From Astropecten irregularis (Eukaryota > Echinodermata > Asteroidea > Paxillosida > Astropectinidae), in the NCBI GenBank assembly GCA_963971285.1, contig OZ020244.1:22196001-22260000 (forward strand): 64,000 nt of DNA. The letters are read 5' to 3'. This document shows positions 1,537-47,723 of this stretch, in pieces; the stretch's first letter is position 1, and every line of letters starts with the position of its first letter. The notes under the pieces were generated by a model that did no database searches, was not told the DNA's origin, and worked only from the letters and a program-made list of their open reading frames with translations. The position numbers and the translations under genes are program-made.

Positions 1537-24259
<22,723 letters not shown>

Positions 24260-35900: not shown

Positions 35901-38900
35901 TATACAGCAAATGACAATTCAGACAAATTCCCTTACGGCTAATTGATGATTATATTTATTTAAAAAGCGGCATCCTCTTTGAGTGATCCCCCATGTACAT
36001 GTACTGTTTCTCAGATTGCAGTATTTCTGCGCGTATCGATGATCCTTGGGATATGGCAGCATCTTTATGGTTTCATGGCTTCTGACTGCCAAAAGAACTC
36101 AGATAATAGACTAAACGTCACCATGGCTGGGTAGTGCAGTTGATAAGAGCGCCGGTACAGTGTTCCGGGTGTCGATAGATCGAAACCCGTTCCAGTCAAT
36201 TTTTAATAAAGCGTTTTCCTGGTTTTTCTCCGTTGTCTTACAGGCGTACATCAGTAACGCACCAATTGCATCGACCACTTTCGGACTTATTCGAGACTTG
36301 TTTTTTCTTGTTCCAGATGTTTCAAAGGCGCATCGACGGCTCCGTGAGTTTTAACCGGAACTGGCAGGAATATGCCGATGGTTTCGGGGATGTGGCAGGG
36401 GAATTCTGGCTGGGGAATGAGAAGCTGAAGAAATTGACAGCAGCGGGATCATGGGAGCTGCACATCACCGTGCAAAACTTCGCTGATGAAGAGGCTGTTG
36501 TCAAGTATGGGCAATTCAGTATAACAGATCCTAACTACAAGTTGTACGTCCACTCATTCACCGAAGTTACTTTAAGTCCAGGTACATACGGTGTTCAGTT
36601 TCATTAAATATTTGACAATAAGTATAATTGTGTTCCCCATCACTTAATGTAGTTGTTTTAGGTGATGTGCATAGCCATTGCTCAAAACCTCGCGCTGCTT
36701 ACGCACAAAAATGGGTAGAGGTAACCTACGACTTTCGACACAAATCGACACGAAAGCAATTGTTAGATTATTGCGATTGGAATGGTCAGTTAATATTCTC
36801 ACGATCTCGATGGAAGTGCGCAGTCTCTGTAGTCACTTAACTACGAAAGCCCAATCGTGCCACTGACAAAAATAATTCTGTCTGAAACTAATTCGTTTTA
36901 ACGGATTACTAATTCGTTTTAACGGATTACTAATTCGTTTTAACGGATTACTAATTCGTTTTAACGGATTACTAATTCGTTTTAACGGATTACTAATTCG
37001 TTTTAACGGATTACTTATTCGTTTTAACGGATTACTAATTCGTTTTAACGGATTACTAATTCGTTTTAACGGATTACTAATTCGTTTTAACGGATTACTA
37101 ATTCGTTTTAACGGATTACTAATTCGTTTTAACGGATTACTAATTCGTTTTTTCGAATTACTAATTCGTTTTTACGGATTATTTTTTTACACGGCTATGG
37201 CTTGGAAATACACAAGAGCCTATACAAAGTGGCTGCAGCCGGTGGGGCGTGCTCGTGTGTAATTTCAAGCTGTAGCCATGTAATTCGGACATGGCTTCGC
37301 TGGTTCGAGGTATTTTAGACATCATTCGAAAACTGCATGCAAAAGCAAAGGAACCAGCGTAACATATGGCCGAGCCCCCGTCACGTCACTAGCACTGTGT
37401 TTGTACATTGCATAATACGCACGCTGCGACTTACGCTACTGACAACAACCATCATCAACCAACTTTCTGCCTTTTACAGTTTTATTTTCTGTAACAGTGA
37501 TGGTCACGGCCGGTTGCTCAGCCATGGAACCCCAGGTACGGTATAGGCTTAGTGTTTTTGGGTATTCATTATGCTAGACAACCCTATTTTTCATCATTGA
37601 GTCATTTTGTTGTAGTAGGCCCATGGGTAGTCAGGCACAGTACCACGCTCGTAGTCGAATTGTATCATGAGTTCAGCAATGGTTACTTGTGTCCTCTGTA
37701 AATGCATACCTAAAGTGCATCATTGATTGTTCTTCTTAGGATTATGTAGAGCTGCAAGCTTTCCTCCCAATCCTTTGGCACCTGCATCCCTTCTTCTTCC
37801 ATGATGATGGTGCACAAGTCAAATACATCTTTATCACATGGGTATTGTCCTTTAAAGGTGCATTCACTTTTGCAGACTTCTATTTCATCCAGTGGAACAG
37901 GCAGCAGAAAGTTCTCGACGGCATACAACTGCGGCAAGGTGTGCATCACAACAGGGCGGCCAAATGGGCCGAGACGATTCCTCGATGGTTTGATGTTGTG
38001 GTTGTTCCATTCTTGTTGTACGGAGTCCAGTTCTTCCTGTAATTTCAAGAAAGAAAGAGAAATGCCTGAAACTACATGCTCATGCAGTGACACAAGCACA
38101 ATGATAATAGGGCAGAACTTTGAATCACTAAAGGGAGGGATCATCACCTGTTTGCATTTTCTTGTTTACCTTTTTTTCTTTCATCATGATCCGTGCAAAA
38201 TAATGCATAGATTTTAATTAGGGTGAAAACCGTCATAATCTTAAACTATTACCTGAATGATGTTTAAGAAACAGAATTGTGTGAGTGACTTGTCAAGCCG
38301 ATCCCCGAAGAGCCCTTCCTCCTTGAGATGTTTGAAGACGTCCATCCAAAACTGGGCACAATGCTTCCGAAGAATGCTCCACCAACATTCTATCCTCGGA
38401 TTGTTTTGACTGGTTCCTTGTGTGAAACTCTTTCTATGAGCAAACGAGTCGTTGTGATTTCGTCTCAGAAACTGCTGCATTTGACGAATATGGGCGTTTT
38501 TTTGTTCCATGGTCGGCCCTGATGACCCTTGGGCAACCGTTTTCTCTGGAAACTGTTTCCATCAAATATCCGGCAATGACTGACGGATCACTGTTTGTTG
38601 AGTACGCCTCAAGCCACAACACACGTCTTGAGAACCCATCTATACACCCACTAATACAAATTCCATACGGAGTTAATTTGTCGTACGAATCGGTATGCCA
38701 CATGAAATTCGGCCCTCTCACACGATACAGGCGCCTTTGCAATCTCTTTCTTCTTCTCAGTTCTACGCCTTCTTCATCCAGAAGTTTTAGCATTAAGCGT
38801 ACTGTTTCTCTATCCGTGTTCAGCCCATTTTGGATGCACTTTAAATGCATCCAGCGGTAGCCATGCAAAATCCCTGAACGCTGAAGCTCCGACTGAATAA

Positions 38901-41900
38901 AAAGAGCAATGTCAAAAATATCGGAGTGGTTTTTGCGGCGATACAAACCCAGAGAACGCAGTCTTCTTTGCAGGGTCCGCTTACTTATCAAAATGTTGTG
39001 ATTAAGAAGCAGCGATCCAAGTATTTCATCGTAACTCCAGCCAAGGTTGAAGTATTGCCGAATGAACATGTATGGTAACGGTGCCATCATCAGGTGTGAA
39101 TAACGAGTAACTACATGTGTAATTTGTAATAGTAATCCGAAATAACGAATTAGTAATTCGAAAAAACGAATTAGTAATTCGTTAAAACGAATTAGTAATT
39201 CGTTAAAACGAATTAGTTATTCGAAAAAACGATTTAGTAATTCGTTAAAACGAATTAGTAATCCGTTAAAACGAATTAGTAATCCGTTAAAACGAATTAG
39301 TAATCCGTTAAAACGAATTAGTAATCCGTTAAAACGAATTAGTTTCAGACAGAATTATTTTTGTCAGTGGCACGATTGGGCTTTCGTACTAATTCGTTTT
39401 AACGGATTACTAATTCGTTTTAACGGATTACTATTTCGTTTTAACGGATTACTAATTCGTTTTAACGGATTACTAATTCGTTTTTTCGAATTACTAATTC
39501 GTTTTTTCGAATTACTAATTCGTTTTTACGGATTATTTTTTTACACGGCTATGGCTTGGAAATACACAAGAGCCTATACAAAGTGGCTGCAGCCGGTGGG
39601 GCGTGCTCGTGTGTAATTTCAAGCTGTAGCCATGTAATTCGGACATGGCTTCGCTGGTTCGAGGTATTTTAGACATCATTCGAAAACTGCATGCAAAAGC
39701 AAAGGAACCAGCGTAACATATGGCCGAGCCCCCGTCACGTCACTAGCACTGTGTTTGTACATTGCATAATACGCACGCTGCGACTTACGCTACTGACAAC
39801 AACCATCATCAACCAACTTTCTGCCTTTTACAGTTTTATTTTCTGTAACAGTGATTGTCACGGCCGGTTGCTCAGCCATGGAACCCCAGGTACGGTATAG
39901 GCTTAGTGATTTTGGGTATTCATTATGCTAGACAACCCTATTTTTCATCATTGAGTCATTTTGTTGTAGTAGGCCCATGGGTAGTCAGGCACAGTACCAC
40001 GCTCGTAGTCGTACGTGGTACATCATCCATGGTAGTAGTACAGTACATGTTTGACGGCGAGGGGTTGGCATCACCGGGGGGGGGGGGGGGGGGGGGGTTG
40101 AGTGAACTTGTTATATTAGTCCGTGGGCCGTGGCCTTTTATTCGCTCGTTTCGTGACCATCATCACCGAATTTGTTCCCATTCGGCATGGATGTAGATGT
40201 GACATTACTGAACAAGAATTGATTTGTTTCCACGTCCAATTTGTGTTCCCTGAAGAGAAATTTGCGACAGAAAATCGTCAAATTTTACGTACAGAAAAAA
40301 CATATCAATAAACAGCGCCCTCAATCGGAAGAAGGTAATTATCTACAATAAAACTATACGAACTGCATGTAAAACCCTTTACATGATTGGAAACTGATCA
40401 AACTTCAACCTAATTTAATGTGTCGTTTTAATTACGGGAGTCCCCAGATAAAGGTGCCTTATAAAAATGCTGTATTATTATTATTATTATTATTATCATT
40501 GGGATTAAATATGTGAAATGACCTTGGCCTGTAATTGTGTACATATGTATCTCTTTTAAATACTGACTCTGTTCTCTCCTTTCCATTTCTCAACCAGGGG
40601 GAAGCTTCTGTGCAAGATTTGTACTTGTTTATGGAACTGAGAGGGATTTCGGGAGAAATAATCGAAAACATGAAAAAGGAAAAGGTGAGATACAAATTGC
40701 ATAATAATCTTAATAGTGTATGTTATATGAACAGTAATGCAGAAAGGGAATTGTTGTGTCTTTGGACAGACTTGTTAAAGAGTGTTCTAATTAACAGCCT
40801 TGTTGGCCACACCATGTTGAAGCTATATCGCACAACAATCGAGAGGCAGTTACCCGGACAACCGCACACATATATAAGGGGTGTGAGAATTCAACTTTTT
40901 AGCTGATTCAGTTTTTTTGGTTCATGATTTTACTCTGAATTTCAGCTTTTTTGTACACCTGCTGTGTACAAAAGTATGGTAACTGATTAAATTTCAGCTT
41001 TTTCGGAGCAGTTTCAAGCTTTTGTTGCATGTGGCCACTCACACCCCTGATGGATGCGCAGTACTCAGTACATGTATACATGTAGTGTATAGTCTTAGCT
41101 CCAGTTGCTACACAACAGGAATGCAACAGGAATGTACCTAATCGAATCAAACCTGTTAAATTGTGCCCAAAAAATCTAATACATGTGTATTAAAAGTTCT
41201 AATTGTAACGCAACGGTTAACTTCAAGAATACCAAGAACAGTTGTGGAATTTCCTGTATCACCAAATCCTAACATGACAGCCACATCCAGTTGGCCAATG
41301 AGTAAAGCACTGAGTGAAGACAGCATGCATGATTGACTTACTTTTAATGAAACTGTTTCTTTTTTTAACGTTCAGATTGATGCAGCTGTCCTTGCAATGA
41401 TGGATGACTCGTCGCTCCAAGATTTTGTGCCATTATTGGGAGACAGGATAGCCCTACGGAATTTTTGCACCAAAGCACCAAGTCTTGTTGAAAGTAGCAA
41501 TGGCACATCCTCAAGAAGAGACACACTCCTACAAAAGCTCAGAGTCAAGCTAGGGATGAGACAGGCAGGGACAAGTGATGAGGAGTCAAGTGCTTGCAAC
41601 AGATCCGAGCGATTGAAAGGAAACCAGAATGCATCTAAAGATAGCAGAAAGATTGATTTCGGCTGGATTGACTTCAGTTATGATACCAACGGTTACAAGC
41701 AAGTCAGAAAAAATACAGGAGGTGGCACTAGGCAACTGACTGTGTCCAAATCAATGGGTTATGCTGACCTTCTTGGACTTGCCAAAGGTTTGTTTTTGAA
41801 AGACGGTATTTCTTCCAGAGGGAAAGAATGTGACTTTGAGCATGACCTCTGTGATTTCAGACAGCAGCCTCTACCGGAGTCTGTAACTGTTGGCCAGCTC

Positions 41901-44900
41901 TACAGCGAGACTAAAATGTCAATATTGAGATTTTACCTCAGAACCAAAGGAAAACATAATGCCAAGAAAGAGGAGAAGAGAAAGCAGAAGCGTAAGTTGA
42001 TTTCCTTGGACTCAGATTCTTCAGAGGAGGACTTTTAAGATCCTTGGGCTTTCGAAATTCCAGGGAATGAAGTCGAAATTCAGGAGAGTTCATCACCACA
42101 GCCTCATGAGGGGGAGGTTGAGGAATGCCTTGCCAGTACAGAGCAGCTCCCTGAGAGTTCACCAAGAGAACCAGTTCAACCAGACACACCAACAGTCTCA
42201 TTTGGGCCGAGAAGCTCACCAGATCACCAGAACCTACTCAATGACACCATTCCTTCTTGTTCCACATCACCTGACCAAGGCTCATCACACAGCACTTCCC
42301 AGTCCCAAGCATTTGAGGTAGTTATCATCCGAAGAGTGGCAATAGTGGAAGACATGATCGCTGCTTTTTCATCTCCAGAAATCATGGAAGCAAAGGTGTC
42401 ATTGCACATGGTTTTGCCAAATGGAGATATTGAAGCAGGGCAAGGCAGTGGTGTGTTTCGAGATGCCCTAACACAATTTTGGGAGGAATTCTTTGCAAAA
42501 TGTGCTGTAGGCGACATTCAGAAAGTTCCTACCGTCCGCCATGACTACAAGGAGACCGAGTGGCAAGCAATTGGAAGAATATTGGCAAAAGGGTGGGTGG
42601 ATCAAAGATATTTCCCTCTGTCGCTCTCACCAATTTTTGCGGAAACTGCACTGTATGGATCGCAACCAAGTGACGAAGATTGCAGATCTGCATTTTTGGC
42701 ATTTGTGCCAAAAAATGAAAGAAGAGTGCTAAGCAGTGCACAGGAAGAATTCCCCAGTGATCCAGAGGAGCTGCTTGAGATTCTTGGTGACTATGACTGT
42801 CGTACAGTTGTGAATCAAACAAATCTGTCAAGGGTGATATCTGAGTTAGGATTTCAGGAACTGTTCCAAAAACCGAAGTGCATGGCGGACTTCATGCAGC
42901 CAGTGTTGGAACCTCTTCGACAGGCCTTCACAAAGAATACCCTACTGAATCTCTATGAGGAGTTGCAGCCGACATCTAGAAAGGTACTATCTAAACTGAA
43001 ATTTCCTCCTGATTGCAATGCCGTCGAGTCAACAGTAGCAACGTACCTAAAGAGATATGTGAGGTCCTTGGATGAGCGCATGCTCAAACGCTTTCTGCGA
43101 TATTGCACTGGTTCAGATGTACTTTCCGCGAAGGCAATCACAATTATGTTCACACAAATGGAGGGCTTTCAAAGAAGACCAGTTGGCCATACCTGTGGTA
43201 GTGTTCTTCAACTTCCAGCAACTTATGAAAGTTTTGTTGACTTGCGCCAGGAATTTAATGCAATTCTTGAAAGTGGAGTCTGGGTTATGGATGTAATTTA
43301 AAGAAATCATGCTTGTTAAACAGCACCTGTTAGTGTACGTGTATCTTACACAGAAGTTGTGGCCTGTCATTAACAAAGTGTTGTAATTTTTGTAAATGGC
43401 AGTGTTTTTATAATGTCATTGCAATCAAGTAGTTGTCTTGTTGACTTGTTAAAATTCTTGGAAACATTATAACGCAAATGTAGTGAGATATTTTAAAGTT
43501 ACTCTCTTCTGCCGTTAAAATAAATATTGTGTACCAAACGAATAATTCATAACCATTTGTCACAGAGCTTGCCATTGGGTGTTTTTGACATATCTTTAAC
43601 CATGAAGAAAAGGACGTTATTGATTTTTTTTATTAGGTTTTAATGAGGTTGTGATTCCTGATCTTGGTCTCCAAACTTTGCCCATATTTGACATTTATAA
43701 TATAAATTAATATAAAAAGAGCCTATTCAAGATACACTCATGCTGACAATTCATCTACAGTGCTTAAAAGTAAACTTTAAGAGCCTTTTTTCTGCCTGTT
43801 TTTTATAATAATTAAAAAATCTGTGTACGTGTATTTGGGAACCAAGATTTTAAACACAAGGATTTTTCTCTCGATCATTCATTAATCACAGTCTGAGAAA
43901 CCTTAATAGGGATCCACATGTACATGTAGTACTTTATGACAATCATTAATTGTTTCTTGTTTACTCGATTTTTACATGAATGAGTGCTTCCTTTTGATTA
44001 TGTAAAGTAATAGAAAATGCCAAAAGAGTGTTTGCGTATTTCCTTTATACAATGTAGATAACTTTCTTTGTTGTTGGTTGGTTTCCCTAATACTGATTAA
44101 AATGGGAGACTTTCATCAAGACACTTGTGCCAGCAGCCATCGACCCCCTTTCTTCCACAGTACTGTAAAAATGAGCGGTAACACGTACCACCAGTCTCAA
44201 AGTCTTCCTTAGGCTTAGATTTCAAGTTACTATGAAGTTGATCTTTCTTTCAGTGTGTACTATGCAGACAAGAATATTTTTGTTGTTGTTTTTTTGTACC
44301 TAAACATGATATAATTTAAAATCCATAAGAACATTTTCATTGTTTATGTGTTAAAGAGAGTTCCTGCAACTTTTTTACTTGAAGTGCTTCTAATCTATTA
44401 AAGAATTCACTTCTTAGGCTAATTAAAGTTGGTTTCATTTTTATTTGCAAATCATATCAGGCATTTTTTGTGCTTTTATCCCTCTTTGCTTCCAAATGTA
44501 AACCACACAAATAATGAGGTTTTCTTGTTGTAACAACTCTTATTGATATTTGCATGTCATTAACTTTCCATTTGAATTTAGCTTGGCCATGGGAAAATAG
44601 CTGTGGTGATCAATAAACTATTCCAACCGACCATGTTGAATGAAATCAGCAGTTTTCTTTGTAAACTAAATAAAGACCAAGGGAGTGCACATATAGTTCG
44701 AAGGTGAATCAATTTTGCACATGTAAACGAATTATGTCTTCACATCTCTAGTTTATTGAATGATGTCCAGATTTATTAAAGTAGTAAAGCATAAAAAGCA
44801 GCAAGAGACATGGAGGAAACAGAAACATCTTAAACATAAAAGACAAATCAAAAGAAAACGGTCTTATATGTCATTGAAGTAAGGAAGGAACTAGAAAAAT

Positions 44901-47395
44901 GATGGAAAAATGCACAAATGAAAACCGAATAACATGAGGTTAATAAGTAGACAAGTTAATATTGGATTAATTCAAATCAATTAAATCCAATCAAATTTGA
45001 TTAAGATTAATAAATATAAATTATATCAAATTAATCAACTTAAAGTAAATCAAACTTCACTTTAAATTGAATTAGACTCTGACCAGGCCTGAATTACAGA
45101 ATCAAAGGACGCTAAAAGAAGGCATAACCGCCAGGGAATAGCAATGTAGTCGTGACTTTTAGTTAATTGGTCTCGAATTGTATCATGAGTTCAGCAATGG
45201 TTACTTGTGTCCTCTGTAAATGCATACCTAAAGTGCATCATTGATTGTTCTTCTTAGGATTATGTAGAGCTGCAAGCTTTCCTCCCAATCCTTTGGCACC
45301 TGCATCCCTTCTTCTTCCATGATGATGGTGCACAAGTCAAATACATCTTTATCACATGGGTATTGTCCTTTAAAGGTGCATTCACTTTTGCAGACTTCTA
45401 TTTCATCCAGTGGAACAGGCAGCAGAAAGTTCTCGACGGCATACAACTGCGGCAAGGTGTGCATCACAACAGGGCGGCCAAATGGGCCGAGACGATTCCT
45501 CGATGGTTTGATGTTGTGGTTGTTCCATTCTTGTTGTACGGAGTCCAGTTCTTCCTGTAATTTCAAGAAAGAAAGAGAAATGCCAGAAACTACATGCTCA
45601 TGCAGTGACACAAGCACAATGATAATAGGGCAGAACCTTGAATCACTAAAGGGAGGGATCATCACCTGTTTGCATTTTCTTGTTTACCTTTTTTTCTTTC
45701 ATCATGATCCGTGCAAAATAATGCATAGATTTTAATTAGGGTGAAAACCGTCATAATCTTAAACTATTACCTGAATGATGTTTAAGAAACAGAATTGTGT
45801 GAGTGACTTGTCAAGCCGATCCCCGTTGAAGAGCCCTTCCTCCTTGAGATGTTTGAAGACGTCCATCCAAAACTGGGCACAATGCTTCCGAAGGATGCTC
45901 CACCAACATTCTATCCTCTGATTGTTTTGGCTGGTTCCTTGTGTGAAACTCTTTCTATGAGCAAACGAGTCGTTGTGATTTCGTCTCAGAAACTGCTGCA
46001 TTTGACGAATATGGGCGTTTTCTGTTCCATGGTCGGCCCTGATGACCCTTGGGCAACCGTTTTCTCTGGAAACTGTTTCCATCAAATATCCGGCAATGAC
46101 TGACGGATCACTGTTTGTTGAGTACGCCTCAAGCCACAACACACGTCTTGAGAACCCATCTATACACCCACTAATACAAATTCCATACGGAGTTAATTTG
46201 TCGTACGAATCGGTATGCCACATGAAATTCGGCCCTCTCACACGATACAGGCGCCTTTGCAATCTCTTTCTTCTTCTCAGTTCTACGCCTTCTTCATCCA
46301 GAAGTTTTAGCATTAAGCGTACTGTTTCTCTATCCGTGTTCAGCCCATTTTGGATGCACTTTAAATGCATCCAGCGGTAGCCATGCAAAATCCCTGAACG
46401 CTGAAGCTCCGACTGAATAAAAAGAGCAATGTCAAAAATATCGGAGTGGTTTTTGCGGCGATACAAACCCAGAGAACGCAGTCTTCTTTGCAGGGTCCGC
46501 TTTCTTATCAAAATGTTGTGATTAAGAAGCAGCGATCCAAGTATTTCATCGTAACTCCAGCCAAGGTTGAAGTATTGCCGAATAAACATGTATGGTAACG
46601 GTGCCATCATCAGGTGTGAATAACGAGTAACTACATGTGTAATTTGTAATAGTAATCCGAAATAACGAATTAGTAATTCGAAAAAACGAATTAGTAATTC
46701 GTTAAAACGAATTAGTAATTCGTTAAAACGAATTAGTAATTCGAAAAAACGAATTAGCAATTCGTTAAAACGAATTAGCAATTCGAAAAAACGGATTACT
46801 AATCCGTTAAAACGAATTAGTAATCCGTTAAAACGAATTAGTAATCCGTTAAAACGAATTAGTAATCCGTTAAAACGAATTAGTAATCCGTTAAAACGAA
46901 TTAGTAATCCGTTAAAACGAATTAGTAATCCGTTAAAACGAATTAGTAATCCGTTAAAACGAATTAGTAATCCGTTAAAACGAATTAGTAATCCGTTAAA
47001 ACGAATTAGTAATCCGTTAAAACGAATTAGTAATCCGTTAAAACGAATTAGTTTCAGACAGAATTATTTTTGTCAGTGGCACGATTGGGCTTTCGTAGCT
47101 TTCGTACTTAACCAATCATTTTCCTTGTTATCTTTCAGGTGAAAGTCTTGAGGAATATTCGGGCTGGCAATTCTCAACTGCTGACGCCGACCACGACGAC
47201 AGAAGCGGGGAAAACTGCGCGGCAGTTTTTCAATCTGGTTGGTGGTTCAAATCTTGCCAACCCAGGAGCAACCTTAACGGTCCGTACTCGCATACTGAAG
47301 CCGTGGCCGATCATGGAGGGATTCAGTGGCAGACGTGGATGTCGAGGACGAAGTCCCTTAAAGAATGTGAAATGAAGATACGGCGCACTGCATAG
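32903..47395 (+). CDS. Secreted fibrinogen-related protein (FReD), 5 exons, 514 aa
   Basis: CDS exons 32912-32984, 33710-33991, 35202-35869, 36317-36581 and 47139-47395 join in phase to 1545 nt. All introns are GT-AG. Residues 1-24 look like a signal peptide (MNLDRNMESCRVSCVIAAVF LLAQ). Residues 25-118 are an N-terminal region I do not recognise, with a CTC motif. Residues about 120-300 are Thr/Ser/Glu/His-rich with 37-residue repeats. The fibrinogen C-terminal domain starts at about 303 with YADCQEIRNAG. It contains FQRRIDGSVSFNRNW, YADGFGDVAGEFWLGNE, the calcium-site-like FSTADADHDD, then WWFKSC, NLNGPY and a C-terminal MKIRR. Such proteins in invertebrates are usually secreted lectins of innate immunity or matrix; which applies here is unknown. 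The last intron is 10.56 kb because of a composite transposon. The exon ends still join as SPG|ESLEEYSGW, so splicing can remain normal. An upstream non-coding exon is likely, since exon 1 has an acceptor at 32901-32902. Confidence 0.88.
33157..33655. repeat. Family G inverted-repeat element, copy 1
   Basis: About 500 bp. Left segment CGCGAACGATTTGCGAAAGA and right segment TTCGCGTGTGTTCGCGTGCC are roughly inverse, with CCCCCT at the outer ends. Other copies are at 47969-48464 and 62932-63405. The 196-codon ORF crossing it is not supported in the other copies and I do not consider it a gene. Confidence 0.65.
33710..33991 (+). CDS. FReD exon 2 (N-terminal region)
   Basis: 282 nt. Acceptor TCTTCGCAG, donor GTACATA. 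Encodes VVIPVSARVCVLGTEPDSSA, then DPCTCTVIVPGGHNMYAPPR, then the segment DAGEIRRLFNCV. I recognise no domain. A mariner-type MITE begins 5 bp into the following intron. Confidence 0.85.
33997..34357. mobile_element. Tc1/mariner-type MITE (TA-flanked, CAGGGTGTCCC ends)
   Basis: Left TACAGGGTGTCCCAGAAAAA and right TTTTTTCTGGAACACCCTGT followed by TA. The arms are long (about 165 bp), including CTTTCATTTGATACCATTCA and its inverse TGAATGGTATCAAATGAAAG. Flanking TA and CAGGG(T)G ends fit Tc1/mariner. It sits 5 bp inside intron 2. Confidence 0.8.
34350..34635. repeat. Degraded relative of the 11621-11954 MITE
   Basis: Shares GGATTTTTTCAGCTATTACG with the 11.7-kb copy, also CCCCTAATAAGACATAACAG and the end GAACCGCACCCGGG. 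The poly-C tracts are replaced by A-rich sequence. Confidence 0.55.
34706..34790 (-). repeat. tRNA-like sequence, minus strand (SINE or tRNA pseudogene)
   Basis: The minus strand reads GTGGGTTCGAATCCCACCTG then AGCCAG, a well-formed T-arm and 3' stem. The 5' half is long and has no standard D-arm spacing, so it is not a functional tRNA. Confidence 0.5.
34880..35166 (+). repeat. About 285-bp intronic repeat ending in a tRNA-derived SINE head (upstream of FReD exon 3)
   Basis: Contains CAGTTTCCCTTGTGATTATT, then CATCCTCTTTGAGTGATCC-like sequence and GGTTTCATGGCTTCTGACTA. It ends with A box TGGCTCAGTTGGTAGAGC and B box GGTTCGAATCCCGCTCCAGT at 35094-35166. A second copy precedes exon 4. Confidence 0.7.
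35202..35869 (+). CDS. FReD exon 3 (Thr/Ser repeats and start of fibrinogen domain)
   Basis: 668 nt. Acceptor ATTAAAG, donor GTAAGT. After VTSPGDINLQESTLIDATAY come nearly identical 111-nt (37-aa) units built from THEESTTLADTHESTLDTTS and QVFADTTHQESTAVVD. There are three complete and two partial units. The exon ends with YADCQEIRNAGHTTSGVYTI and YCKMEGSLGYI, the start of the fibrinogen domain. Confidence 0.88.
35300..35745 (+). repeat. 111-bp coding minisatellite in FReD exon 3
   Basis: The units share ACAACTAGCCAGGTGTTTGC and CACTCATCAGGAGTCAACAG at a 111-bp period, near 35325, 35421, 35544 and 35655. Very few substitutions separate them, which suggests recent expansion or homogenisation. 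The first interval is 15 nt shorter. Confidence 0.85.
35915..36205 (+). repeat. Second copy of the 285-bp intronic repeat with tRNA-like head (upstream of FReD exon 4)
   Basis: Shares GCATCCTCTTTGAGTGATCC and GGTTTCATGGCTTCTGACTG with 34880-35166. Its tRNA-like part (36126-36200) is more decayed, with B box ATCGAAACCC. Both copies sit shortly before the next exon's acceptor. Confidence 0.65.
36317..36581 (+). CDS. FReD exon 4 (central fibrinogen domain)
   Basis: 265 nt. Acceptor CTTGTTCCAG, donor GTACAT. Starts MFQRRIDGSVSFNRNWQEYA and continues GFGDVAGEFWLGNEKL and WELHITVQNFADEEAVVKYG. Ends with one base over (SP-G). Confidence 0.92.
36886..37190 (+). repeat. Left terminal array of 21-bp units (copy 1)
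   Basis: About 14 units of ACTAATTCGTTTTAACGGAT+T. The last two are variants with TTTTTTCGAATT or TTTTTACGGATT. Arrays with the inverse unit end copies 1 and 2. 21 nt is 7 codons, and the frame CTA-ATT-CGT-TTT-AAC-GGA-TTA has no stop. Confidence 0.9.
37190..37290. promoter_or_regulatory. Imperfect hairpin upstream of the SAM-HECT first exon
   Basis: ACACGGCTATGGCTTGGAAA and TTTCAAGCTGTAGCCATGT are imperfect inverse repeats between the terminal array and the first exon. The same sequence is in copy 2 at about 39543-39640. It could be promoter or transposase-binding sequence; this is inference from position only. Confidence 0.4.
37710..39090 (-). pseudogene. Frameshifted transposase (integrase core), copy 1
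   Basis: Same two-exon layout as the intact gene at 45228-46610 (exon 1 39090 to about 38253, exon 2 38036 to 37710). At about 38500 the plus strand has seven Ts (CGTTTTTTTGTTCC) where the intact copy reads CGTTTTCTGTTCC. This shifts the frame just after RADHGT, so the catalytic Glu and C-terminus are lost. A 3-nt deletion removes one Asn in LFNGDRL, and QRIECWW is PRIECWW. Confidence 0.85.
39120..39345 (-). repeat. Right terminal array of 21-bp units (copy 1)
   Basis: About 10 units in the orientation AATCCGTTAAAACGAATTAG+T. The inner units are variants with TTCGAAAAAACG or TTCGTTAAAACG, and the outer ones are uniform. Confidence 0.88.
39878..39889 (+). CDS. SAM-HECT exon 1 coding part (MEPQ)
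   Basis: ATG GAA CCC CAG then donor GTACGG. The 4-codon coding end is joined in phase 0 to exon 2 (GEASVQDLYLF). The same exon survives in copy 1 at 37524-37535. Confidence 0.75.
39878..43301 (+). CDS. Transposon-borne SAM-like plus HECT-domain protein, 4 exons, 650 aa
   Basis: Exons 39878-39889 (MEPQ), 40598-40684, 41376-41991 and 42064-43301 join in phase, all GT-AG. Residues 5-65 resemble a SAM domain: QDLYLFMELRGISGEIIENM, then KKEKIDAAVLAMMDDSSLQD and PLLGDRIALRNFC. Residues 100-240 are basic and Ser-rich with KRKQKR at the end. Residues 245-330 are a Ser/Pro/Glu-rich linker. Residues 335-650 resemble a HECT E3 ubiquitin ligase: LPNGDIEAGQGSGVFRDALT in the N-lobe, then EWQAIGRILAKGW. 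The C-terminal RPVGHTCGSVLQLPATYESF carries the expected catalytic Cys in the T-C-x-x-x-L-x-L-P motif. HECT enzymes pass ubiquitin from that Cys to a substrate. In the element it could act on the transposase or on host chromatin proteins; that is inference. A host origin by capture is possible. Copy 1 keeps only exon 1. Confidence 0.82.
40598..40684 (+). CDS. SAM-HECT exon 2
   Basis: 29 codons, phase 0. Acceptor TCAACCAG, donor GTGAGA. Encodes GEASVQDLYLFMELRGISGE then IIENMKKEK, the first half of the SAM-like domain. Confidence 0.85.
41376..41991 (+). CDS. SAM-HECT exon 3
   Basis: 616 nt, leaving phase 1. Acceptor CGTTCAG, donor GTAAGT. Reading through the donor meets a stop after 16 codons, so the intron to 42063 must be spliced to reach the HECT region. 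Encodes the second SAM half and the basic linker. Confidence 0.85.
42064..43301 (+). CDS. SAM-HECT exon 4 (HECT-like domain)
   Basis: Acceptor AATTCCAG. The shared codon gives KR-NEVEIQESSS. Ends VMDVI-TAA. A polyadenylation signal AATAAA lies at 43519-43524, about 220 bp past the stop. Confidence 0.88.
43519..43524 (+). terminator. AATAAA polyadenylation signal for the SAM-HECT gene
   Basis: First AATAAA downstream of the stop codon, in TTAAAATAAATATTG. From here to 45175 the element is AT-rich non-coding spacer with no ORF I trust. Confidence 0.5.
45228..46610 (-). CDS. Transposase with integrase (DDE/rve-like) core, 2 exons, 388 aa
   Basis: Exon 1 46610-45771 and exon 2 45554-45228 on the minus strand join in phase 0 (donor CAG|GTAATA, acceptor ATTACAG). 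The N-terminus has a helix-turn-helix-like part: YFNLGWSYDEILGSLLLNHN then KRTLQRRLRSLGLYRRK. The core holds the first Asp in FMWHTDSYDKL, the second in RVIRADHGTENAHIRQM and the Glu in NNQRIECWWSILRK, the three metal ligands of RNase-H-fold integrases. The fold is shared by retroviral integrases, Ginger and IS3-type transposases. The C-terminal exon (EELDSVQQEWNNHNIKPSRN, RPVVMHTLPQLY) would help bind DNA. The start is the ATG at 46610. The frame is open upstream into the terminal array but without an ATG. Function: cutting and joining the element's ends in the nucleus. Confidence 0.87.
46660..47050 (-). repeat. Right terminal array of 21-bp units (copy 2)
   Basis: About 18 units. The outer twelve or so are the uniform type AATCCGTTAAAACGAATTAG+T. 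The inner ones mix TTCGTTAAAACG and TTCGAAAAAACG variants. Confidence 0.9.
47139..47395 (+). CDS. FReD exon 5 (end of fibrinogen domain and stop)
   Basis: 257 nt. Acceptor ATCTTTCAG, 32 bp after the transposon's flanking CTTAAC. Encodes ESLEEYSGWQFSTADADHDD, RSGENCAAVFQSGWWFKSC and NLNGPYSHTEA, with stop TAG at 47393. An AATAAA follows at 47724. Confidence 0.92.
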
Positions 47396-47723
47396 ATTCC
47401 CTCGGGCAGTTGCCGAGGGTGTCAAGTTTTGGACAGGCAAACTTATCACAAGTATATTATTCTGAAAACACTGTTTCTGCCGGCACGATATTATGAACTC
47501 CATTCACATAATTTGGTTCATTATCAGAATGCATCGGTTTATGTGTTATTCTGAAAATTGAAATGTAATCGATATTATTTTGCACCTTCAAGTGCAACAT
47601 ACACCAGTGTGCATTGGTAATTGTGAAGCACTATAGATTTATACAAGTCTGCTGATGTAACACGCCGGACATCGTTTTCTAGGGAGATTCACCCAAAACT
47701 ATATATGTTTGAGGTGTCAATCC

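Follow-up and report, generated by a model that had tools for sequence, protein, structure and literature searches.

The window analysed here is a 64,000-nucleotide stretch of chromosome 1 of the sea star Astropecten irregularis. It contains a DNA transposon with two genes. One encodes a DDE transposase, and the other, convergent with it, encodes a protein with a HECT fold and the conserved cysteine of HECT ubiquitin ligases. Ubiquitin ligases attach ubiquitin to other proteins, which in many cases marks these for degradation. The tail-to-tail pair is found again in elements of this genome that are only distantly related, so the ligase appears to have been retained over a long time as a working component and not as a passenger. 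The second protein is predicted to be active as a ligase, on a target whose modification would benefit the element.

Structure of the insertion in the window

The insertion spans positions 36842–47106 and is flanked on both sides by a 6-bp target-site duplication (TSD), CTTAAC. Its termini are TACGAAAG.. at the left and ..CTTTCGTA at the right. It consists of two copies of one transposon arranged head-to-tail, unit A followed by unit B. The sequences flanking the element (36300–36600 and 47100–47400) are exon-like and are presumably parts of a fibrinogen-like gene. The features of the insertion are as follows.

36836..36841, no strand: left TSD CTTAAC, same as 47107–47112, adjoins the TACGAAAG terminus
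36842..39388, no strand: unit A, internal-deletion derivative, termini at 36842 and 39388, split transposase open reading frames
36887..37181, plus strand: 21-bp array, unit A left, 14 copies
39130..39343, minus strand: 21-bp array, unit A right, 10.2 copies
39387..39535, plus strand: 21-bp array, unit B left, 7.1 copies
39389..47106, no strand: unit B, near-full-length, SAM-HECT and transposase genes
46650..47052, minus strand: 21-bp array, unit B right, 19.2 copies
47107..47112, no strand: right TSD CTTAAC

Unit A has both termini and a deletion of about 5.2 kb, which leaves only exon 1 of the SAM-HECT gene. The deletion joins the equivalents of unit B positions ~40011 and 45176, with TCG common to both, and the unit A transposase is frameshifted. 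Unit B is 98.7%–99.3% identical to three TSD-flanked copies found elsewhere in the genome (L009, L010 and L011). It is without its own left outer ~45 bp and begins in the 21-bp array directly after the unit A terminus; at its right end there is an additional 9-bp copy of the terminus (47098–47106).

A first-pass annotation of this DNA, made from the letters alone, had placed the element at 39389–47106. This corresponds to unit B, which is real, but the TSD-bounded insertion is larger (36842–47106) and includes unit A. The inverted ends and two convergent spliced genes described there are found, and both genes sit between inverted 21-bp arrays. As a whole, that observation is partly confirmed.

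The 21-bp unit gives 40 matches in the window as against none in 100 shuffles. Subterminal arrays with a period of 21 or 22 recur among the loci with differing unit sequences, including ACTAATTCGTTTTAACGGATT in the window element, CCGCCACTTAGTATCTCGCGG in family F4, TAAGTCGAAATTACGAGATAA at L016 and AAGTCGTTCGAACGAGATAAT at L023. At L024, L025 and L026 the repeat finder called no arrays in the stretches read. The arrays may represent transposase sites set two helical turns apart, which would change along with the enzyme.

The transposase gene and its superfamily

45771..46610, minus strand: transposase exon 1, DDE integrase core (PF24764, 2.3e-27)
45228..45554, minus strand: transposase exon 2, C-terminal part including the stop, splice motif at 45560

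The splice model gives a transposase of 388 residues from these two exons, and in paralogues the matches break at the same residue. The sequence matches the Pfam integrase core rva_4 (PF24764) at 2.3e-27; the match to rve (5.6e-4) is below the cut-off. The catalytic triad is D134, D193 and E234, with spacings of 58 and 40 residues, and these positions fall in the motifs initially read as D, D and E (HTDSYD, RADHGTEN and QRIECWW). Two relatives (P0030 and P0054) match NCBIfam models of IS3 and IS481 at scores well short of the curated cut-offs.

TSDs of 6 bp are present in seven of the nine elements with candidate ends located on both sides, and six of the seven are gene-bearing. The duplications are CTTAAC, TATTAA, AGTTTG, ACTCAG, GGTTTC, CTTAAG and AAACTA. 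Among the nine, L013 and L014 show no direct TSD, the left end of L014 being uncertain. The termini are of the TA..TA type: TACGAAAG..CTTTCGTA in the window family, TATGAAGC..GCTTCATA in family F4, and TATGG..CCATA in a miniature element (MITE) described below. The IS3EU superfamily is characterized in the text of PMC10045372 by TA..TA termini, usually 6-bp TSDs and an IS3/IS481-like DDE transposase. Since the termini, the 6-bp duplications and the IS3/IS481-like integrase-fold transposase fit this description, the element appears, on sequence features, to belong with IS3EU.

The SAM-HECT gene and its protein

39878..39889, plus strand: SAM-HECT exon 1 (MEPQ), splice model, identical model in L009 and L010
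40598..40684, plus strand: SAM-HECT exon 2, first half of the SAM-like domain, splice model
41376..43301, plus strand: SAM-HECT exon 3, rest of the SAM-like domain, ubiquitin-like domain and HECT domain
43194..43196, plus strand: predicted catalytic Cys codon (HTCGSVLQLP)

The SAM-HECT frame has 674 codons in three exons and is convergent with the transposase gene. In unit B an in-frame TAA at 42036–42038 interrupts the frame, thus the gene is broken in the window copy. The frame is open throughout in L009 and has one stop in L010.

The window protein matches the Pfam HECT domain (PF00632) with an E-value of 9e-10 and 39.1 bits, against a cut-off of 23.9. For the HECT protein, 29 relatives were found, from fish, molluscs, a brachiopod, a beetle and a sea star. 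Of these, 24 were aligned, and every one of them retains the C-terminal Cys, which corresponds to C616 of the Patiria miniata relative P0001; it is also present in all eight family representatives used for the distance comparison below. In an AlphaFold model of the relative from Patiria (pLDDT 78.7, 24 sequences), a module of five helices at the N-terminus is followed by a beta domain and then a HECT domain, and the last of these matches the folds of HUWE1, UBR5 and NEDD4. The two-lobed HECT fold and the C-terminal Cys are thus common to the transposon protein and these ligases, with an identity of 11%–18% among the 50 Foldseek matches listed. Unlike HUWE1, UBR5 and NEDD4, the transposon protein has SAM-like and ubiquitin-like domains ahead of the HECT domain. 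The beta domain of the middle region has a ubiquitin-like (beta-grasp) fold, as obtained from the window's own exon folded with 17 relatives.

The five helices of the N-terminal module are at residues 6–59 of the Patiria relative model. A Pfam search of the module gave no SAM match, and its best hit, Ish1 (2.3e-4), is below the cut-off and found with one of three pieces. Profile searches of the PDB yielded weak, sub-threshold matches to SAM chains (ANKS4B, 0.15; USH1G, 0.22; SAMHD1, 0.71), the best match being 8fje (molecule E8, 0.0013), with ribosomal protein L19 also present (0.17). Because the best PDB match is another protein and Pfam gives no SAM, SAM is a likely rather than an established label for the module, much weaker than HECT.

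The first-pass annotation had proposed a spliced gene for a 650-codon protein, SAM-like at its N-terminus and HECT-like at its C-terminus. The gene is indeed spliced, but its frame is 674 codons long and carries the TAA here. The HECT-like region has both the Pfam match and the HECT fold and does not belong to an unrelated fold. As to the SAM-like region, the helix pattern and the weak PDB matches agree with the proposal, whereas the Pfam result and the best PDB match do not.

Other copies in the genome

A DNA search with the transposase yielded 15 matches, two in the window and 13 at 12 other places, and all 12 were read. L009, L010 and L011 are single-unit copies of 7712, 7834 and 7041 bp, flanked by the TSDs TATTAA, AGTTTG and ACTCAG, respectively. 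Together with unit B they show 98.4%–99.3% pairwise identity. Both genes are present and convergent in each of the three. L011 is damaged: the segment that would hold exon 1 of the ligase is absent and this exon was not found, the HECT part has a TAG, and the transposase is in pieces. The first-pass annotation had allowed that other copies might always lack the SAM-HECT gene; this is not so, as these three copies carry both genes.

At L012 a single terminus is present and 9.9 kb contain no HECT sequence, and L015 is a fragment of the transposase. L013 and L014 form a second family, with the pair present. The outermost termini found at L014 are flanked by ATGTAA and TTACAT, which are inverted rather than direct. 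At the right end of L013 and at window positions 47098–47106, part of the right terminus (GGCTTTCGTA or GCTTTCGTA) is repeated once more outside the element; these repeats may have been left by the joining step.

A distant family is represented by L017, L018 and L019, with identities of 56%–58% for the transposase and 35% for HECT. When more flank was read, two of them proved to be elements of 12,630 and 11,463 bp with ends TATGAAGCCC../..GGGCTTCATA, TSDs GGTTTC and CTTAAG, and both genes. For the remaining copy, 13.9 kb of sequence did not reveal the end on the ligase side. L016 and L020 also carry the convergent pair, which is partly decayed in L016.

The window contains in addition a 440-bp MITE (7937–8376) with TA..TA ends, terminal inverted repeats identical at 60 of 60 positions, the TSD AAACTA and inverted 21-bp arrays. 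It is a gene-less element of an IS3EU-like family other than that of the window element.

Genome-wide pairing of ligase and transposase

A search with the window HECT protein gave 39 matches, which represent 30 loci. Transposase loci number 70, and 23 of the 30 HECT loci have one at 13 kb or less; 22 of the 23 are convergent with the nearest transposase. When the Pfam HECT search is combined with this, there are 63 HECT loci, and 34 have a related transposase no more than 13 kb away; the counts for large families are lower bounds. The chance expectation is that about 0.4% of loci are near a transposase. All 34 paired loci have a tail-to-tail transposase. One of them, on C22, was counted as convergent via a second transposase piece, the nearest piece overlapping the HECT sequence on the same strand. 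In the pair at C1:11.8M the genes are 11.5 kb apart.

The 29 unpaired HECT loci comprise 19 with two or more Pfam-only matches, five fragments on C11 and another five. None of the 19 is near a transposase, and these look like ordinary multi-exon host genes.

Seen from the transposase side, 26 loci have 190 or more aligned residues, and 17 of these have a HECT sequence on the window-HECT search. One of the other nine (C21:3.32M) gained a HECT by the Pfam search, three (unit A, C19/L012 and C15:18.17M) carry deletions or are truncated, and the remaining five are diverged (35%–44% identity). One of these five, at C1:14.17M, is a single-exon transposase frame of 444 residues, and the 6.5 kb examined there contain neither HECT nor 21-bp arrays.

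The proposal that the element carries its own E3 ligase gene is therefore supported by the recurrent convergent pair and by the HECT fold, with activity presumed from these. Outside the Astropecten irregularis genome, the pairing is barely shown.

Co-inheritance and constraint

Eight representatives, from seven Astropecten families plus a Haliotis pair, were used to compare HECT and transposase distances. The two matrices correlate (r = 0.62, Mantel p = 0.001). The F2 ligase frame is damaged and F2 distances are thus inflated; without F2 the correlation is 0.68 (p = 0.002). The sister pairs F1-F2, F5-F6 and F7-F8 appear in both trees, while the deeper branches disagree, Haliotis and F4 being placed differently.

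Identity between families is 27%–50% for HECT and 41%–70% for the transposases. Synonymous differences (pS) between families are saturated (0.76–0.79). The lower pN values, 0.33–0.37 for the ligase (four family pairs) and 0.17–0.18 for the transposase (F1 vs F2), show that both genes are constrained and that the ligase evolves faster.

Relation to known elements

The window element resembles IS3EU of PMC10045372 in its TA..TA termini, 6-bp TSDs and IS3/IS481-like DDE transposase. The fuller Astropecten elements differ in having a second gene, for the HECT ligase, and 21–22-bp arrays, in several families. The terms HECT and ubiquitin do not occur in the main text of that paper.

In rust fungi, TET-bearing IS3EU elements are described with 6-bp TSDs, terminal inverted repeats of more than 30 bp ending TAYGG..CCRTA, and accessory genes, namely a TET/JBP dioxygenase and an alpha-kinase; the TET/JBP genes are thought to counter silencing (text of PMC12730594). 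The sea-star element shares with these the superfamily features, the 6-bp TSDs and the possession of accessory genes, but has a HECT ligase in place of TET/JBP and alpha-kinase. Again, neither HECT nor ubiquitin is mentioned in the main text of PMC12730594.

In Ginger1, the transposases contain protease domains of the OTU or Ulp1 type, and a role for the ubiquitin pathway in transposition was suggested by the authors (text of PMC2836005). Ginger1 and the sea-star element are alike in combining an integrase-like transposon with ubiquitin- or SUMO-pathway domains. In Ginger1, however, a tag-removing protease is fused to the transposase, whereas in the sea-star element a predicted tag-adding enzyme is encoded by a separate gene; HECT does not occur in the main text of PMC2836005. 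No description of a ligase-transposase pair was found among the titles and abstract openings searched or in the papers examined for HECT, and a prior description elsewhere is possible.

Proposed role of the ligase

We favour, with modest confidence, a two-gene DNA transposon whose E3 ligase works in trans, most likely on a host protein that limits transposition. The DDE transposase would cut at the TA..TA ends and integrate with a 6-bp stagger. It would bind the subterminal arrays, probably as a multimer, with the 21-bp period corresponding to two helical turns. The second gene would provide the SAM-like/ubiquitin-like/HECT protein, most likely an E3 ligase, whose HECT domain would receive ubiquitin from a host E2 on its Cys. 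The substrate may be chosen by the N-terminal SAM-like and ubiquitin-like domains, and would be a silencing, chromatin or repair factor of the host rather than the transposase. Action in trans is suggested by the existence of gene-less elements, such as the 440-bp MITE, although this belongs to another family. In our judgement a host restraint factor ranks above the transposase as the probable target because the ligase evolves faster and because fungal IS3EU elements carry TET/JBP.

Alternatively, the ligase could target its own transposase on the ends, either limiting its level or dismantling the strand-transfer complex and thereby letting host repair complete the process. We regard this as possible but less probable. 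Co-inheritance and the tail-to-tail arrangement of all 34 pairs are what a dedicated pair would show, and there is a precedent in phage Mu, where a protein-remodelling enzyme takes apart the transpososome. A ligase tied to its transposase might however be expected to evolve in step with it, and the HECT sequences are less conserved between families than the transposases.

A wider form of the host-factor reading is offered as a speculation that we consider rather doubtful. Animal IS3EU elements would include an old class of transposon that encodes a dedicated E3 ligase for removing a host chromatin or silencing factor, and the spread of this class would have made more than half of the detected sea-star HECT loci transposon-borne. 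The SAM-like fold and the RAWUL-like/ubiquitin-like fold are reminiscent of Polycomb subunits. If true, transposon-borne HECT loci would be a reservoir of new E3 ligases for hosts.

The HECT gene might instead be neutral cargo, captured from a host and carried along. Captured genes can travel in transposons, the window copy is broken and deletion derivatives exist. This explanation is disfavoured, and we think it improbable, in view of the between-family constraint, the Cys invariant in every aligned relative, and the recurrence of the gene in seven divergent Astropecten families with three congruent sister pairs.

Chance or an assembly artefact, with a host HECT gene beside a transposase remnant, has a negligible probability: the window copy is broken and a two-unit composite could in principle be a mis-join, but chance pairing is refuted by 34 of 63 loci as against 0.4% expected and by the TSD-bounded copies elsewhere that contain both genes, and the assembly is HiFi-based with a QV of 56.8 (as given in the text of PMC11480709).

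With a transposon-encoded tag-adding enzyme, it is testable whether a transposon steers host protein turnover in order to move. The element may account for HECT proteins labelled “uncharacterized” in fish, a sea star, molluscs, a brachiopod and an insect. Transposons can also inflate HECT gene counts in such genomes (34 of the 63 loci in Astropecten irregularis).

Additional observations

Positions 3863–5717 of L014 were compared with Patiria miniata P0001. A 249-residue SAM-HECT part shows 95.6% protein identity, and other pieces show 64%–96%. The mitochondrial ND5 is 68% identical to that of Aquilonastra batheri, an asterinid like Patiria. The high SAM-HECT identity relative to that of ND5 suggests a possible horizontal transfer of the L014 sequence.

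A COX1 frame of 552 residues is present on contig C131 (32162–33484) and has no stops in the standard code. C131 is probably a bacterial contig within the assembly.
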